Shown: piece by piece, positions 1,415 to 6,569 of the stretch
Position numbering within the stretch: the first letter of the stretch is position 1
Layout of the letters: each line of letters begins with the position of its first letter
Assembly (NCBI GenBank): GCA_001824455.1
Contig: MHXL01000111.1
Location: forward strand, 6,385 to 12,953
Source of the DNA: Desulfuromonadaceae bacterium GWB2_53_15
GTDB lineage: Bacteria; Desulfobacterota; Desulfuromonadia; Geobacterales; Pseudopelobacteraceae
DNA length: 6,569 nt
Reading direction: 5' to 3'
Made by a program: the position numbers and the translations under genes
The notes under the pieces: model-generated
What the model was told of the DNA's origin: nothing
The model's database searches: none
Seen by the model: only the letters and a program-made list of their open reading frames with translations

Positions 1415-1416
1415 GT

Positions 1417-1526
1417 CCCCTCTCCCTGAGGGAGAGGGCTAGGGTGAGGGGGGAAAGTTGCAATATATGCTCTGTTGCCACCCCCCTCATCCGGCCTTCG
1501 GCCACCTTCTCCCTCAGGGAGAAGGG
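1417..1526. repeat. Palindromic repeat, copy A (intergenic)
   Basis: A composite inverted repeat of about 110 bases. The left palindrome (1418-1438) has arm CCCTCTCCCT, a one-base centre and a perfect complementary arm. The right palindrome (1505-1525) has arm CCTTCTCCCT, a one-base centre and a perfect complementary arm. Inside them, GGGTGAGGGGGG (1442-1453) faces CCCCCCTCATCC (1481-1492), and a small GGCC-TTC-GGCC hairpin sits at 1493-1503. The middle (about 1454-1480) is unrelated AT-richer sequence. Two further copies occur in this window (5564-5669 and 6413-6541). The element begins 3 bases after the stop of the 114-residue gene. No transposase is present, so if mobile it is non-autonomous. 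I know this kind of sequence as a dispersed proteobacterial repeat but cannot name the family. Confidence 0.9.
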
Positions 1527-1528
1527 AT

Positions 1529-1873
1529 TTATTTAGTCTTCCCGACGCTGACCAGATAGAAGTCCAGCTCCCGCATGAAAACCTCCCGATCCACCGGAGC
1601 ATCGCGCTCGTTCAACGTCCTGCTCAGATTCGCCTCCACGCCCAGCTGGGAACTTTTCCAGGGAACGATGAAAAGCGACATCGGAGCATCGTCGTTGCCG
1701 AGCACCGACATGCCCCTGAGGGTCTTGGCTTGCGAAGCGACAGGTTCATTGGCTGCATCGGGTCCAGCCTGTACATTCGACCCATTGGATGCACTGGGCG
1801 CATTCTCTTCCGCCACGGCCAGGGCGCCCGATAGCAGAACCAGACACAGACTGAAAATCAAGGTTCGGTACAT
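1529..1873 (-). CDS. Small exported protein of unknown function (114 aa)
   Basis: A Sec signal peptide is clear: MYR, a hydrophobic core at about residues 4-16, and a probable cleavage after ALA (19) or AVA (21). Residues 22-50 are an Ala/Asn/Ser/Pro-rich linker. The C-terminal half (about 51-114) looks like a compact domain, with the run LRGMSVLGNDDAPMSLFIVP followed by WKSS, and later DREVFMRELDFYLV. I do not recognise a named family. I have an unverified impression that similar 'LGN...P...IVPWK' proteins accompany ExbB/ExbD-TPR clusters. The ATG at 1873 is 3 bases after the preceding stop, and a GGAG overlapping that stop lies 6 bases upstream, so translation is probably coupled. There is no Cys after the signal sequence that would make it a lipoprotein, so it is expected to be soluble in the periplasm. 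The stop codon is followed within 3 bases by a palindromic repeat. Confidence 0.85.
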   Translation of the reverse strand: MYRTLIFSLCLVLLSGALAVAEENAPSASNGSNVQAGPDAANEPVASQAKTLRGMSVLGNDDAPMSLFIVPWKSSQLGVEANLSRTLNERDAPVDREVFMRELDFYLVSVGKTK

Positions 1874-1876
1874 GGC

Positions 1877-2641
1877 TTACTCCGTGGGGCGGGGACTGGT
1901 TAAGCTGGCAACATGTCCCGACCTGGTATGCAGGTCGACCAGCCATAACTTCACCTGCTGGTCCTTGGTCATCGCCTTGCCGTAAACCTCGTAATGCTCA
2001 ATGGCGCAGGCCGAGTCTCTCAAATACAGATCACAAAGAATTCCGAGATTTTTGTGGACCGGATAGTACTCGGGAAAAACGGAGAGCGATTTTTCATAGA
2101 TCAGCCGGCTCTCTGCGAATCGCCCCGCCTTACGCAGCAGCAGACCGTATTCGTTGCTCGCCAGCGGATGCCCGGGGATCAACTCCAGCGCCTTTTTCAG
2201 ATGCAGCTCGGCCTGCTCCGGTTTATCGATGCGCCCATAGGCAATGGCGACATTGATGTGGGGCGCGGTCATATCCGCTGACTTTGCAATGACCTTTTCC
2301 AGCAACTCGATAGCCTGGTCATGCTTCCCTTCCTTGATCATCACGCCGGCCTGATCGAAGTCTGACTGCGCCTGGCTATCCATCCGCAAAGGTTCCGTAA
2401 TCACGAAACCTTCACGCCCGTCGGTGAAATGGGCCACCGATGGTCCTGCCGGAGGAGGCGGTTCTGCCGCTACGACCGGTTTGGATTCAACGGTTGCCAC
2501 CTTGGCTGTCTGCGTGCTGGCGCATCCTGCCATCAGCAGGAGCCCTGCCGCCAACAGCAGGTAAACGGTAATCGCTACCTTGCGAGCCCCATTACCCTGC
2601 CCTCTTAGCCTGATTACCTCATTTTTCGGTGCGCTTTCCAT
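1877..2641 (-). CDS. TPR-repeat lipoprotein (254 aa)
   Basis: The start is set at the ATG at 2641 because a near-perfect AAAGGAGGT lies 5 bases upstream. The same frame stays open to 2836, but the added N-terminus is Arg/Gln-rich shadow sequence of the upstream gene. The protein has a 21-residue polar, basic N-region, a hydrophobic stretch (about 22-39) and a lipobox-like L-M-A-G-C ending at Cys40; Met at the -3 position is less common than Leu. Residues 41-90 are a Pro/Ala/Val-rich linker. Residues about 91-226 contain about four TPR-like helical pairs, for example DQAIELLEKVIAKS, EQAELHLKKALELIPGHP and AESRLIYEKSLSVFPEYYP. It overlaps the preceding gene by 23 bases, and its stop is 3 bases before the next start, so it is translated within the operon. 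It is probably a periplasm-facing lipoprotein that mediates protein contacts, in the manner of small TPR lipoproteins such as PilF or GltE. That comparison is general and not an orthology claim. Confidence 0.9.
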   Translation of the reverse strand: MESAPKNEVIRLRGQGNGARKVAITVYLLLAAGLLLMAGCASTQTAKVATVESKPVVAAEPPPPAGPSVAHFTDGREGFVITEPLRMDSQAQSDFDQAGVMIKEGKHDQAIELLEKVIAKSADMTAPHINVAIAYGRIDKPEQAELHLKKALELIPGHPLASNEYGLLLRKAGRFAESRLIYEKSLSVFPEYYPVHKNLGILCDLYLRDSACAIEHYEVYGKAMTKDQQVKLWLVDLHTRSGHVASLTSPRPTE

Positions 2642-5600
2642 TTTTGACCTCCTTTGCCCGTGGGGTTGCCACTGGGGTCTTTTTAGACACGCCCTTTTTC
2701 GACACGCCCTTCTTGGCCGCTGTCTTTTTAGGCGGTACTGCCTTGGATGCCGGTTTTTCATTCTTCGCTGCAGGAAGGACGCTTGATGCAGGGGCTTGGT
2801 CTGCAGCTGGCGCCTCCACCTTGACCTCCGCTGCAACCGCTACCTCCTCTTTGACCTCCGCTGCAGCACTCCCTTCCACCTTGGCCTCCGGAACAGCCAT
2901 TGAATACACAGGTGCCGGCCTTGCCAGTTCAAAGGTAAAGGCCTGCAGCGAAGCGACGATCTCAGTGGGAACCTCCGGCTTGTCATAGCGGACAGGCACG
3001 AACTTGGCCAGGCGTCCCAGGCTCTTGTCGATCCAGGGGTTGTAGATACCAATGGTGATCAACTCCAGATTCTTCTCGTGGACATTGATGGCCTTTTCTT
3101 CGAAAGGAAAGGCCTGCTCTTCGATTGCCAGCTCGTAATCCTGCATTTCCTGGGCGTCCAGGCCCTCCGGACGCTCCGACTCGGTCAGTGCCTTGCTGAA
3201 ACGGGCGTAGGTTTCACCGAGATAGAATGTCGCCGCGGCCGTGACCTCACCGACTTCATATTCCACCAGCTGGTTGAATTCCTGGGTTGTGGCCTTCATC
3301 AGCTCTTTCTTTTTGGCTAGATTGTCTTTGAATGGTTTAACGAGCCGGACTTCCGCAAAGCGGTCAAAGGTCTGCTCGGCAAGCACCAGTGCGGCCTTCC
3401 CAGCCAGGTAGCGGGTCCGCGGGCTGCGCGCCTCGCCGGCCGAGGCCTCGATCGCCACCATCTCGCGAAGCTCGTGCAGATAATTTACCCGATCATTATC
3501 CTTCTTCAGGATTTCTACGATCTTGTTACGGATTTCCAGGTTACCCTCGACCGGTTGGGCAAAGTACCCGACGAACCGGCGGTATACCGCCAGGGTCTGT
3601 TTGCTGTTGCCGGTCTGCTGATGCAGCTCTGCCGCAAGCAAGAGAGCCCCCCTCCGTACCTCCTCATCCTTGGACTCCTGCTCTACCCGCTCATATTCAT
3701 TGGCGGCCAGGGCAAGCTGCCCGTCTTCCTTGTAGACATGGGCGATCTTCCTGGTGACCTCCGGCTGCAGCTCATGATCTGGGAAGAGTTCTCTGAATCC
3801 GGCCAGGACCGTCGCCGCAGTTTTCCACTCCTTGAGTTCGATGAGGGCGGCTGCGGCGTCGTACTCCGCGTTCACCCGCATCTTGGAAGAGGAAGCCATG
3901 CGGCCGACGCGCAGGAAGTGGTCTGCAGCTGCCCGATAATCCTTCTGGGCATTGGCCTGCTCCCCTTGTTTGTAGATCGATGCTGCCAGATTGTCGATGA
4001 AGCCCGGCCGGCTTTTATCCTCCGCGGGAAGCAGCGCCAGAACCTTGGTGTAGGCGGTCTCGGCTTCGGGGTAATGCTGGAGTTCATAGTTGGCATGGCC
4101 GACAACGATCACAGCCGATCTGACCACCTCCCGGTCCGCTTCCGGGAAGGCTTCGATGAGCTTGCTGGCGGCGGCCAGCGCCGGTTGGTACTCCTTCATC
4201 TCGTACAGGTCATCCGCGGCCGCGCCGAGGACGATGGCCGCCTTCTCGTGCTTCGGGAAGGTCTCGGCGAATTTGAGCGAGCTGGCCACTGTCTCGCGCT
4301 TGACCGTGTCTTTCTCGTCGGCCCCCACGGCGGCTAAATGCTGCCGATAAGCATGAATGGCGGCAAAGCCCGCAGCGGACGCCTTTTCGTGACTCGGGTA
4401 GCTATAGGCGGTTTTTTCGTATTCTTGCGCCGCCCTGGCAAAGGAGCGATTTTCAAGCAGCAGGTCGGCCAACTGGTAGTTGATGACCGGCGATTCGCCA
4501 TCCTGTGGGAAGGAATCCAGGAACTCCTCATACCAGTGCAGGGCTTCCTGGAAGTTTTCCCCCTTCACCTTGAGATGCTCCCGATCCTGGTACAGCGAGT
4601 GGTAGTGATGGGCCAGGTCGGTAAAGTTGCTCTTCAGGTAGCCAAGAACCTCGGGGCGCTTGGCCGGATCGAAATGTTTCCAGTATTCGGCCTTGAGCCC
4701 GTAATTCCTGGCGAACTGTTTCTTGGCATCGATCACGACACTGGGGAAGCCGCCGGCCATCTGGATGTCGATGACGCGCATATGGAACTGGGGCGCGACC
4801 TGGTGGAACGGGTTACGTTTGACGAATGCGTTGTAAGCTGCCGCTGCGTCGCTGTAGCGGCGCTTTTCGAAATAGAATTCGCCCAGGTTGCCGTAGACGC
4901 GGTCCTCGTAGCTGCGTTTGCCTTTGGCGTCGAAGAACTCCATGACCGATTCGGCGCCGCGCAGATAAGAGAAGCTCTGGCTGATGACCCGGAAGGTGTC
5001 GTCGATCCGCTTGCGCTCCAGATCGTCTTTTGTCTGGCTAAAGTCATAGCCCGTGGCCACCTTCTTATCCAACAGCGTGATGAACCGCTGCAGACCCTCC
5101 TCGTAGAGCTCCTCCTTGTAGAAGGTCCAACCGAGCTTGTACAGGGCCAGCTCGTAGTAGGATGATCCGTCACCGGCGTCCACGATGCTTTTGTAGGCTG
5201 ATTCCGCATCCAGGTACCGCTTGCGGGTAAAGAAGTATTCGGCCCGCCTAAACCGCACCTCATCCAGGTAGCGGGAAGTGGGGAAATCGCGGACCATGCG
5301 GTTCATGACCGCCATGGCATCCTCGGTCTGCCCCAGTTCCTCGTAGGCCCGGGTCATCTGGTACATAACCTGGTCGTTCCCCTCGTAAAGCGGGTATTTG
5401 TCCAGCAGCTTGCTGTAGAGCGCGATCGCCTCCCGGGCCCCGGCCCGTTCGAGCTCTTCGGCATCGGCCTCGGTCTGCCCGGCCTGGCTGGGGAGCTGCT
5501 GGCTTTGGAGCGCCCTTTTTTCAAAATCAGCCTGGGATTCGTTCAGGTTGGGTTGCGGCACCGCCCCCCTCACCCGGCCTTCGGCCACCCTCTCCCCGAG

Positions 5601-5945
5601 GGAGAGGGGTTTTCCCCCCTCGCCCTGAGGACCCGCAGGGCCTGAAGAAGAAGGAGCGGGGGTGAGGGGCTTGGTGGCCGCCGAGGCGGTCAGCAATCCG
5701 TATTCCCTCTCGATCTTTAGGTCGGCCAGACGACGGATTGCCGCAGGGGTCAGCCCTGATTCGGGCGTCTCATCGAGGAAGCGCTGGTAACTGTGCATGG
5801 CCTTCTCCAGCCCACCTTCAATGGTTTCCTCTTTGACCTCGATCTTCATGTTCCGCAACTGGGCGATGGTGTCCCTGCTGCCGCCCGTTTGACAGGCGCT
5901 AAGGAACGCTGGAACTGCAAAGACTAGAAGTATTATTCGCTTCAT
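2619..5945 (-). CDS. Large TPR-repeat lipoprotein (1108 aa)
   Basis: Residues 1-18 form a lipoprotein signal peptide: basic MKR, a hydrophobic core, and the lipobox L-S-A-C with Cys18 as the lipid-attachment site. Most of residues 165-900 is helical repeat sequence of tetratricopeptide type, with recurring pairs such as EAIALYSKLLDKYP, RYLDAESAYKSIVD and HYPEAETAYTKVLALLP, typical of scaffolds that bind other proteins. Residues about 93-128 are encoded by a palindromic DNA repeat and read as a Pro/Gly/Ser-rich insert (contains KPLSLGERVAEGRVRG). It sits between a short N-terminal helical segment and the TPR array, so it probably acts as a disordered linker. Residues about 1014-1108 form a low-complexity Ala/Val/Glu then Lys/Pro tail. 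The ATG at 5945 overlaps the upstream TGA (ATGA) and has only a weak ribosome site, so coupling is likely. Location is probably periplasmic, anchored to a membrane by lipid. The exact role is unknown; a scaffold for the ExbB/ExbD machine is inferred from context. Confidence 0.93.
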   Translation of the reverse strand: MKRIILLVFAVPAFLSACQTGGSRDTIAQLRNMKIEVKEETIEGGLEKAMHSYQRFLDETPESGLTPAAIRRLADLKIEREYGLLTASAATKPLTPAPSSSGPAGPQGEGGKPLSLGERVAEGRVRGAVPQPNLNESQADFEKRALQSQQLPSQAGQTEADAEELERAGAREAIALYSKLLDKYPLYEGNDQVMYQMTRAYEELGQTEDAMAVMNRMVRDFPTSRYLDEVRFRRAEYFFTRKRYLDAESAYKSIVDAGDGSSYYELALYKLGWTFYKEELYEEGLQRFITLLDKKVATGYDFSQTKDDLERKRIDDTFRVISQSFSYLRGAESVMEFFDAKGKRSYEDRVYGNLGEFYFEKRRYSDAAAAYNAFVKRNPFHQVAPQFHMRVIDIQMAGGFPSVVIDAKKQFARNYGLKAEYWKHFDPAKRPEVLGYLKSNFTDLAHHYHSLYQDREHLKVKGENFQEALHWYEEFLDSFPQDGESPVINYQLADLLLENRSFARAAQEYEKTAYSYPSHEKASAAGFAAIHAYRQHLAAVGADEKDTVKRETVASSLKFAETFPKHEKAAIVLGAAADDLYEMKEYQPALAAASKLIEAFPEADREVVRSAVIVVGHANYELQHYPEAETAYTKVLALLPAEDKSRPGFIDNLAASIYKQGEQANAQKDYRAAADHFLRVGRMASSSKMRVNAEYDAAAALIELKEWKTAATVLAGFRELFPDHELQPEVTRKIAHVYKEDGQLALAANEYERVEQESKDEEVRRGALLLAAELHQQTGNSKQTLAVYRRFVGYFAQPVEGNLEIRNKIVEILKKDNDRVNYLHELREMVAIEASAGEARSPRTRYLAGKAALVLAEQTFDRFAEVRLVKPFKDNLAKKKELMKATTQEFNQLVEYEVGEVTAAATFYLGETYARFSKALTESERPEGLDAQEMQDYELAIEEQAFPFEEKAINVHEKNLELITIGIYNPWIDKSLGRLAKFVPVRYDKPEVPTEIVASLQAFTFELARPAPVYSMAVPEAKVEGSAAAEVKEEVAVAAEVKVEAPAADQAPASSVLPAAKNEKPASKAVPPKKTAAKKGVSKKGVSKKTPVATPRAKEVKNGKRTEK
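2647..2655 (-). promoter_or_regulatory. Ribosome binding site for the 254-aa TPR lipoprotein, inside the upstream coding region
   Basis: AAAGGAGGT on the minus strand, 5 bases before the ATG at 2641. It lies within the last codons of the 1108-residue gene, where it encodes part of the Lys-rich tail. It decides the start of the downstream gene against the longer open frame that extends to 2836. Confidence 0.85.
2680..2709. repeat. 15-base tandem repeat in the lipoprotein tail
   Basis: Two adjacent 15-base units (TTTTTAGACACGCCC and TTTTTCGACACGCCC, plus strand) differ at one base. On the coding strand they give the KKGVSKKGVSKK part of the Lys-rich C-terminal tail of the 1108-residue lipoprotein. 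Confidence 0.8.
2821..2865. repeat. Direct repeat with 30-base period in the lipoprotein tail
   Basis: TTGACCTCCGCTGCA occurs exactly at 2821-2835 and 2851-2865, and a related TTGGCCTCCG follows near 2880. On the coding strand these give AAEVK-type units (AAEVKEEVAVAAEVKVE). The period is a multiple of three, so copy-number change keeps the frame. Confidence 0.7.
5564..5669. repeat. Palindromic repeat, copy C (inside the large lipoprotein gene)
   Basis: CCCCCCTCACCC (5564-5575), the GGCC-TTC-GGCC hairpin (5576-5586) and a palindrome with 9-base arms CCCTCTCCC (5588-5608) reproduce the right half of copy A closely. The other end is GGGGGTGAGGGG (5658-5669). Between them is sequence containing CCTGAGGACCC and GCAGGGCC. 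The CCCCTCACCC-type ends are on the outside and the palindrome is inside, the reverse of copies A and B. The element is read in frame as residues about 93-128 of the 1108-residue protein, with no stop or frame change. Confidence 0.85.
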
Positions 5946-6569
5946 TTGACGACACTCTTTTCAGTCTGGTTGCCAACACTCTTTTCAGCCTGGGCCCTGG
6001 AGGCGCGGTCGTAACTGTCGGCTATGGCGTAACGCGCGGTGATCCGGTACTGTTCCAGCCGTTCGCGGCGTTTGGTCAGTTCATTGACCGCCATAGTTTC
6101 AAGCATGCTTCCCTGACGCAGCGTCAGGGGCTTCACTTTTTCCTGGGCCGACGCAATCAGGGTACGCTGGTCCCGGATCTTTTCGTCATAGCCTTCATAG
6201 CTTTGGGTGGCGGCCTGGCGGGTGCGGACAAAGGCGTTGTACTGTTTCTTCATCCGGTCCACCTCCTCGTTCAGGTCGGCCAGATGCTTATAGGCGTCGG
6301 TGAGACGCTGGTCGTACTCGGTCGAGATATTCCAGGCCAGTGCCCCTCGCAAGCGGCTGATCCGGTCCCTGGTGTCATCGGACACCAATCCTCCATTGCG
6401 ACTTCCCATAATCCCCTCTCCCTGAGGGAGAGGGTTAGGGTGAGGGGGAAATGGTGGCATCAATTGAGTTGCGCCCCCCTCATCCGGCCTTCGGCCACCT
6501 TCTCCTTTAGGCCCGTCTTTTGGGTCCTCAAGGTAGAAGGGTTTTGATTGAACATAGACACCGCTAACA
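5942..6569 (-). CDS. C-terminal part of a charged, probably coiled-coil protein (5'-truncated by window edge), with in-frame palindromic repeat
   Basis: The frame ends with TGA at 5944-5942 and stays open to the right edge (about 208 codons), so the gene probably begins outside the window. Three parts are visible: about 9 residues at the edge; about 43 residues encoded by a palindromic repeat (contains PHPNPLPQGEG); then about 155 residues rich in Arg, Lys, Glu, Gln and Ala, with heptad-like stretches such as HLADLNEEVDRMKKQYNAF and ELTKRRERLEQYRITARYAI, suggesting long helices or coiled coil. No membrane segment or signal peptide is visible in this part. From memory, the GLVSDDTRDRISRLRGAL stretch resembles C-termini of TPR proteins encoded beside ExbB/ExbD genes; this is unchecked. 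The next gene starts on its stop codon (ATGA overlap), implying one operon. Alternative: translation starts at the ATG at 6409, just after the repeat, giving a 155-residue protein; an AGGGAG-like sequence from the repeat lies upstream. I favour the read-through version. Confidence 0.6.
   Translation of the reverse strand, partial: VSGVYVQSKPFYLEDPKDGPKGEGGRRPDEGGATQLMPPFPPHPNPLPQGEGIMGSRNGGLVSDDTRDRISRLRGALAWNISTEYDQRLTDAYKHLADLNEEVDRMKKQYNAFVRTRQAATQSYEGYDEKIRDQRTLIASAQEKVKPLTLRQGSMLETMAVNELTKRRERLEQYRITARYAIADSYDRASRAQAEKSVGNQTEKSVVK
5952..5993. repeat. 24-base-period direct repeat at the end of the right-edge gene
   Basis: ACACTCTTTTCAGTCTGG (5952-5969) and ACACTCTTTTCAGCCTGG (5976-5993) match at 17 of 18 bases with a period of 24, or eight codons. 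They encode the repeated EKSV in the last residues of the partial coiled-coil protein. Confidence 0.8.
6413..6541. repeat. Palindromic repeat, copy B (in frame at the right edge)
   Basis: The left palindrome (6414-6434) is identical to that of copy A, followed by GGGTGAGGGGG, a different spacer, CCCCCCTCATCC (6474-6485) and the GGCC-TTC-GGCC hairpin (6486-6496). The right palindrome is expanded: CCTTCT (6498-6503) and AGAAGG (6535-6540) enclose about 31 bases that pair imperfectly through CCTT, AGG and CCC against GGG, TCCT and AAGG. The whole element is open in the frame of the partial gene at 5942-6569. Confidence 0.85.

Follow-up and report, generated by a model that had tools for sequence, protein, structure and literature searches.

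How does a dispersed palindromic repeat come to be read as protein? The question is raised by a 6,569-nucleotide (nt) stretch of DNA from Desulfuromonadaceae bacterium GWB2_53_15 (GCA_001824455.1, contig MHXL01000111.1, positions 6,385-12,953 of the forward strand), here called the window, in which a minus-strand gene at 2619..5945 encodes a 1108-residue tetratricopeptide repeat (TPR) lipoprotein. A preliminary description of the window had placed a palindromic repeat in frame inside this gene, and the placement was borne out: the open reading frame (ORF) runs through 1108 codons with zero internal stops, and 5669-5564 encode residues 93-128 (the KPLTPAPSSSGPAGPQGEGGKPLSLGERVAEGRVRGA region), just before the TPR array. 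We consider it probable that this repeat (5561..5669, minus strand) is a degenerate in-frame copy of a known repeat type, BoxC/triplex motif (TM), that was inserted into a linker predicted to be disordered and then replaced about 26 of the linker's residues. The genome that holds it, hereafter the own genome, is a metagenome-assembled genome (MAG) of 1.83 Mb in 189 contigs, 52% complete, with the window on contig C111.

The window holds three copies of the palindromic repeat: an inverted dimer between genes (1416-1530, plus strand), the copy inside the lipoprotein gene (5561-5669), and a copy (6410-6540, plus strand) directly upstream of the next gene, counted from its likely ATG at 6409. As described earlier, the in-gene copy matches an intergenic one: 5561-5613 and 1478-1530 are 87% identical over 53 nt (E 2.9e-11 in a search of the whole own genome). 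Positions 5558-5612 match 17 other places on the own-genome contigs examined (E ≤3e-5, 82-94% identity over 30-52 nt). The other half, 5609-5672, gave no full-length match to the intergenic copies of the window; it is 83% identical over 52 nt (E 1.4e-8) to a variant copy on another own-genome contig (locus L093) that has an extra GGACCC...GGGCC palindrome at its hairpin tip. Both halves of the in-gene copy are therefore repeat-derived. Its first unit (5565..5609, minus strand) follows three blocks, CCCTCTCCC / GGGAGAGGG / GGGTGAGGG, as a loose pattern only, and its second (5614..5669, minus strand) is the nested GGACCC...GGGCC tip variant. By eye, the two units stand in reverse order relative to most copies, with the CCCTCA ends outward and the hairpins inward, an order also found in L102 and partly in L101, and the in-gene copy appears to be a degenerate chimera of two repeat variants.

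The identity of the repeat goes beyond the preliminary description. A 34-nt segment at 6414..6447 (plus strand) is identical to E. coli K-12 TM_ECO no. 17 as given in Table 1 of Holder et al. 2015 (PMC4666352), whose sections drawn on here treat BoxC and PIT, earlier descriptions, as the same family as the G/C-rich TM. The ITxF rule of that work asks for three blocks, with loops 1-6 nt long and no more than a single mismatch. Our own approximation of the strict three-block pattern found it at 1417-1451 (in the intergenic dimer), at 6413-6447, and in stretches of L098, L100 and L101. The 41 nt around 6414-6447 match 3273 of 5426 E. coli genomes, and 25 of 25 matches listed, spread over the ranking of the 3273, lie under no annotated feature. 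On this sequence identity, the window repeat belongs to the BoxC/TM type. An Rfam scan of the window gave zero matches at gathering scores. The repeat is dispersed: it was counted at 24 places on 18 of the 20 own-genome contig stretches with stronger matches that were examined, and it matches 43 of 57 genomes at E ≤1e-6 (own genome included; up to 15 candidates per genome scored).

Is the repeat kept for an action at the level of mRNA or DNA, as an attenuator, a triplex or a regulator site, with the peptide as a by-product? The intergenic copy at 1416-1530 folds as RNA far better than its shuffles (z -7.89), and the class of CCYTC repeats in Geobacter metallireducens has been proposed to act as regulator sites (PMC2700814, in the part describing them). 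In contrast, the in-gene copy folds at z -1.39, with 15 of 200 shuffles as good, and a role of mRNA structure in the gene was rejected on this value. The second loop at 5565-5609 is also 12 nt and breaks the TM loop rule, and Holder et al. (PMC4666352) saw nothing to suggest that TM_ECO has a general role in regulation. We regard this explanation as very unlikely.

If the repeat had simply been inserted, as the preliminary description supposed, orthologues should align continuously with a gap at residues 93-128. They do not: non-carriers keep a linker of similar length and different sequence, which points to replacement, or to insertion plus deletion. Thus the repeat origin stands and simple insertion does not. 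Orthologues were collected as the best 120 of 3864 protein-database matches plus 12 rows from the window and from loci (132); removal of 6 letter-identical rows (126) and of P0001, the window protein itself, left 125 rows, none letter-identical and some close. Eleven loci were excluded from the count as duplicates of rows already listed; one of them, L006 = L067 (Geomonas diazotrophica), differs slightly from every listed row, has no repeat-like stretch and has the motif-like LSKPEP. Non-carrier orthologues have a median linker length of 82 residues, against 88 by the same parse. An APALSAPERA-type sequence, present in most non-carrier linkers, is missing from the window protein; in the comparison with L062, the interval from AAA/AAT to VAPQ/VPQ holds 26 residues of this type, against about 37 repeat-encoded residues in the window. 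Counted with a strict version of our own regular expression, this ancestral motif is present in 97 of 109 parsed non-carriers and in 6 of 15 carriers (Fisher p 5.7e-5, kinship ignored; P0066 was not parsed). The repeat likely took the place of about 26 linker residues in the window protein. In an AlphaFold2 model built on 60 sequences, residues 86-136 (5538..5690, minus strand) have a predicted local distance difference test (pLDDT) score <50, in line with a disordered linker; low confidence fits disorder but does not prove it. If translated as predicted, the repeat-encoded stretch forms part of this flexible linker.

The window protein is not the only one with repeat-like peptides at this place. 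By peptide pattern, they occur in the linker of 15 of the 125 orthologue rows, scattered on the tree (a single quick FastTree tree with the linker columns removed), and the linker in question joins the N-terminal helices to the TPR array. Three types were distinguished: type A (PLTPAPLPQGARGETLSP.ERVAEGRVRG and a nested-tip form), type B (QPSPNPS...ERGLGR) and type C (TPPPLQGEGRGGDG...SSPLKGEGR), with two mixed carriers of A and C and one of A and B. Types A and B, both of CCCTCNCCC-type units, may represent reading frames of related repeats, and type C appears to be another repeat. DNA was searched in the window and in three further genomes. The linker DNA of G082 has 25 further rows at 23 places in that genome, in two separate segments (40 of 43 candidates scored); the type-C segment of G077 has 46 further rows in its genome (40 of 197 candidates scored), and that of G084 has 67 rows elsewhere in its genome, both strands counted (40 of 101 candidates scored). 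The nested-tip unit is dispersed in G082, a 5.1-Mb single-contig genome. At loci L137-L155 of G082, the dispersed element in many cases has a AGGGGAGCTTTAAAG-like flank and the nested GGACCC...GGGCC hairpin. That several repeat types share one linker site is a further point not made in the preliminary description, and the linker is likely a recurrent landing site for repeats.

Could these carriers instead descend from one old insertion in a common ancestor that was lost or eroded many times? The window protein, P0018, P0027, L068, L069 and P0013 share a P(L/F)TPAP-type start soon after the AAT region. The fewest presence/absence changes on the tree number 15 (9 for type A, 4 for B and 5 for C), and such parsimony counts are blind to gain versus loss. 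The type-A segment of G084 gave zero second matches among the 40 of 101 candidates scored; this copy may thus be an ancient remnant, and a single ancestral insertion may be common to some of the carriers. Against a single event, there are three repeat types by pattern, the ancestral linker is kept in six carriers and gone in nine, and by eye the inserts do not lie at one position (downstream of the motif in P0040, upstream of it in P0048). Close empty relatives also exist: the nearest row is empty for carriers P0023 (L062, distance 0.07), P0048 (P0057, 0.082) and L070 (P0056, 0.089), and by eye P0023 against L062 and P0048 against P0057 are clean insertions. Other carriers have carriers as neighbours on the tree (L063, P0027 and L069 near each other; P0039 near P0040). 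A single old insertion is, in our judgment, unlikely.

Besides the blindness of the change counts and the lone type-A segment of G084, several observations weigh against capture followed by replacement. Most carriers were identified by peptide pattern without DNA, those beyond the ones searched as DNA, including L063/L073, having been read by eye or by pattern. The ancestral motif is also lacking in 12 of the 109 parsed non-carriers. The nearest other tree rows to the window protein are 0.35 away, so that the event has no near relative with an empty site by which it could be dated or an intermediate seen. The repeat shows no pre-adaptation to coding: leaving aside the five in-gene places (see below), 14 full copies have a mean of 1.9 of 6 frames open, about the hand estimate for random DNA of the same GC content, and coding pre-adaptation was therefore rejected. 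No mobilising enzyme for the repeat was found. Two Y1_Tnp genes are present in the own genome at its 52% completeness, and no repeat was found on their contigs; among 62 Y1 transposase matches in 10 genomes, 30 loci were examined and weak repeat-like matches were present in 2 (L189 and L206). The bare CCCTCNCCC motif occurs once each at two more Y1 loci, L190 and L209. With no consistent link of the repeat to Y1 genes, a Y1/RAYT transposase was rejected as mobiliser.

Repeats in frame are not confined to the lipoprotein. Five of the 24 repeat places in the own genome lie in frame within four recognisable genes, namely, those for the lipoprotein, UvrB, PurL (two places) and a FabA-domain protein. 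The UvrB insert comprises 59 residues; its site is empty in the congener G002 and holds 7 and 23 other residues in the congeners G003 and G004. Twenty UvrB rows were parsed, own included and L118 excepted: the shortest form is seen in five, 6-8 extra residues in another five, and longer stretches in nine, and two of the longer stretches, L104 and L109, read as palindromic DNA. The insert point falls between residues 425 and 428 of the solved UvrB 9gy7_E. The PurL inserts comprise about 27 and about 14 residues; 20 of the 22 other rows have a short stretch at the first site, and at the second one other row, L228, has a different long insert. The UvrB and PurL loops look like landing sites too. 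Word-based protein searches with the inserts each returned one protein only: P0001, the window protein, for the lipoprotein insert, and P0124, 100% identical over the insert, for UvrB. Repeat-like inserts were also noted at the same UvrB site in L104, L105, L106, L109, L120 and L122 and at the same PurL site in L228, and in G082 an Eco57I-like methylase (L158) reads the repeat PSPRPSPTGGEGVIPPPLMGGGKGEG in frame. By eye, a GCGGCAAC-like stretch of DNA precedes the inserts of two genes; as a shared context it was set aside, as the PurL sites are without it.

The MAG is fragmented, and a repeat-mediated misjoin or a binning error could in principle have produced the in-gene copy. Besides the 189 contigs, the distribution of the lipoprotein leaves room for a misbinned contig. 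Of 57 relatives searched (own genome included), 5 have a strong orthologue, as do 14 of the 48 genomes searched from family f3 and 7 named contigs with Geobacter, Geomonas, Citrifermentans, Geobacteraceae and Desulfuromonadaceae labels; none was found among 35 other genomes searched of family f1, several of them incomplete, in which the MAG is filed. This could reflect horizontal transfer or a misbinned contig. The composition of C111 correlates at 0.935 with the other own-genome contigs examined but also at 0.936 with L062 and 0.928 with L063, from other genomes, and it does not settle transfer versus misbinning. However, the reading frame is intact on both sides of the repeat, 7 sequences are clustered under the protein as listed (not necessarily independent assemblies), and the same pattern is present in the single-contig genome G082; misbinning would alter the name of the host, not the finding. 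We regard an artefact as very unlikely.

Capture followed by replacement could have proceeded as follows. A repeat unit would have been copied into linker DNA, and only in-frame, stop-free events would have survived, since nearly any sequence would be tolerated in a flexible linker rich in Pro and Gly. The old linker may then have been lost through small deletions next to the repeat, of the kind reported at E. coli TM sites. If inserts persist in loops and linkers alone, the same filter would account for the repeated captures of different repeat types at this linker as well as for the UvrB and PurL inserts. More tentatively, and with somewhat less than even confidence, we propose that the linker is a recurrent landing pad at which different palindromic repeats enter in frame and overwrite the native linker, and that DNA instability driven by repeats is a standing source of new linkers in Geobacter-like bacteria, in envelope proteins as well as in core enzymes such as UvrB and PurL.

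The lipoprotein has profile matches over the cut-off to TPR families, YfiO and the NCBIfam model tol_pal_ybgF. The putative lipobox Cys, read from the sequence, is residue 18, invariant across 60 aligned sequences. When the TPR model was searched against known structures, the matches listed (best 50 of 341, E ≤0.001) were many other TPR-type proteins at low structural TM-score, and the search was not used. ExbB- and ExbD-like genes lie near the lipoprotein gene, and a protein with an AgmX/PglI C-terminal domain is encoded further along C111. The adjacent gene (5942-6409, minus strand) has its likely ATG at 6409, read from the frame; the mechanical ORF starts further upstream with TTG. Short tandem repeats with 30-nt and 24-nt units lie at 2801-2890 and 5946-5993, the coding ends of two genes, and the 53-nt stretches 36-88 and 536-588, 85% identical, look like the start regions of neighbouring ExbD-like paralogues.

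In-frame palindromes as a kind are already known, from Rickettsia and from intragenic repetitive extragenic palindromic (REP) sequences. In the open-licence literature searched, there was no report of in-frame BoxC/TM elements or of this linker. New here are BoxC/TM-type repeats within genes, the sharing of one linker by several repeat types, and a change by replacement instead of insertion. BoxC/TM-type elements, described as always intergenic in E. coli K-12, are thereby suggested to remodel proteins too, and linker turnover by replacement in one or two steps, not by point mutation, is suggested as well. With close empty-site relatives, several types per site and house-keeping hosts, this lineage is one in which in-frame palindromic capture can be counted and tested.

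Of the known systems, BoxC/PIT/TM shares with the window repeat the sequence of 6414-6447, inverted pairs and dispersal, and local instability with small deletions around TM sites in E. coli is reported in the part of Holder et al. that bears on them (PMC4666352). As described there, TM_ECO is always intergenic in E. coli K-12, whereas copies here are in frame within four genes. The class 4 CCYTC multicopy sequences of G. metallireducens (Aklujkar et al. 2009, PMC2700814) are, by their description, likely the repeat studied here; multicopy sequences were noted in that genome even within genes, and the sections describing them contain no analysis of the linker. The GTAG/CGTC REPs (Di Nocera et al. 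2013, PMC3733652, a paper whose main text does not mention Geobacter) resemble the present case in that intragenic copies are reported in frame outside Rickettsia, including in uvrA, and that uvrB is a host in R. conorii; different REPs are also described at about one recB site in two Xanthomonas. They differ in their tag, which is not consistent here: GTAG/CTAC stands in or ≤10 nt beside 6 of the 24 copies and CGTC/GACG in 4 of 24. The Rickettsia palindromic elements (RPEs; Ogata et al. 2000, 2002), to which the preliminary description had already and aptly likened the repeat, are likewise palindromic and open in frame within protein genes, a likeness of kind. RPEs, as the cited accounts have it (PMC10969869, PMC3733652), are spread over many Rickettsia genes; here, several repeat types meet in one linker, and the old linker was replaced.

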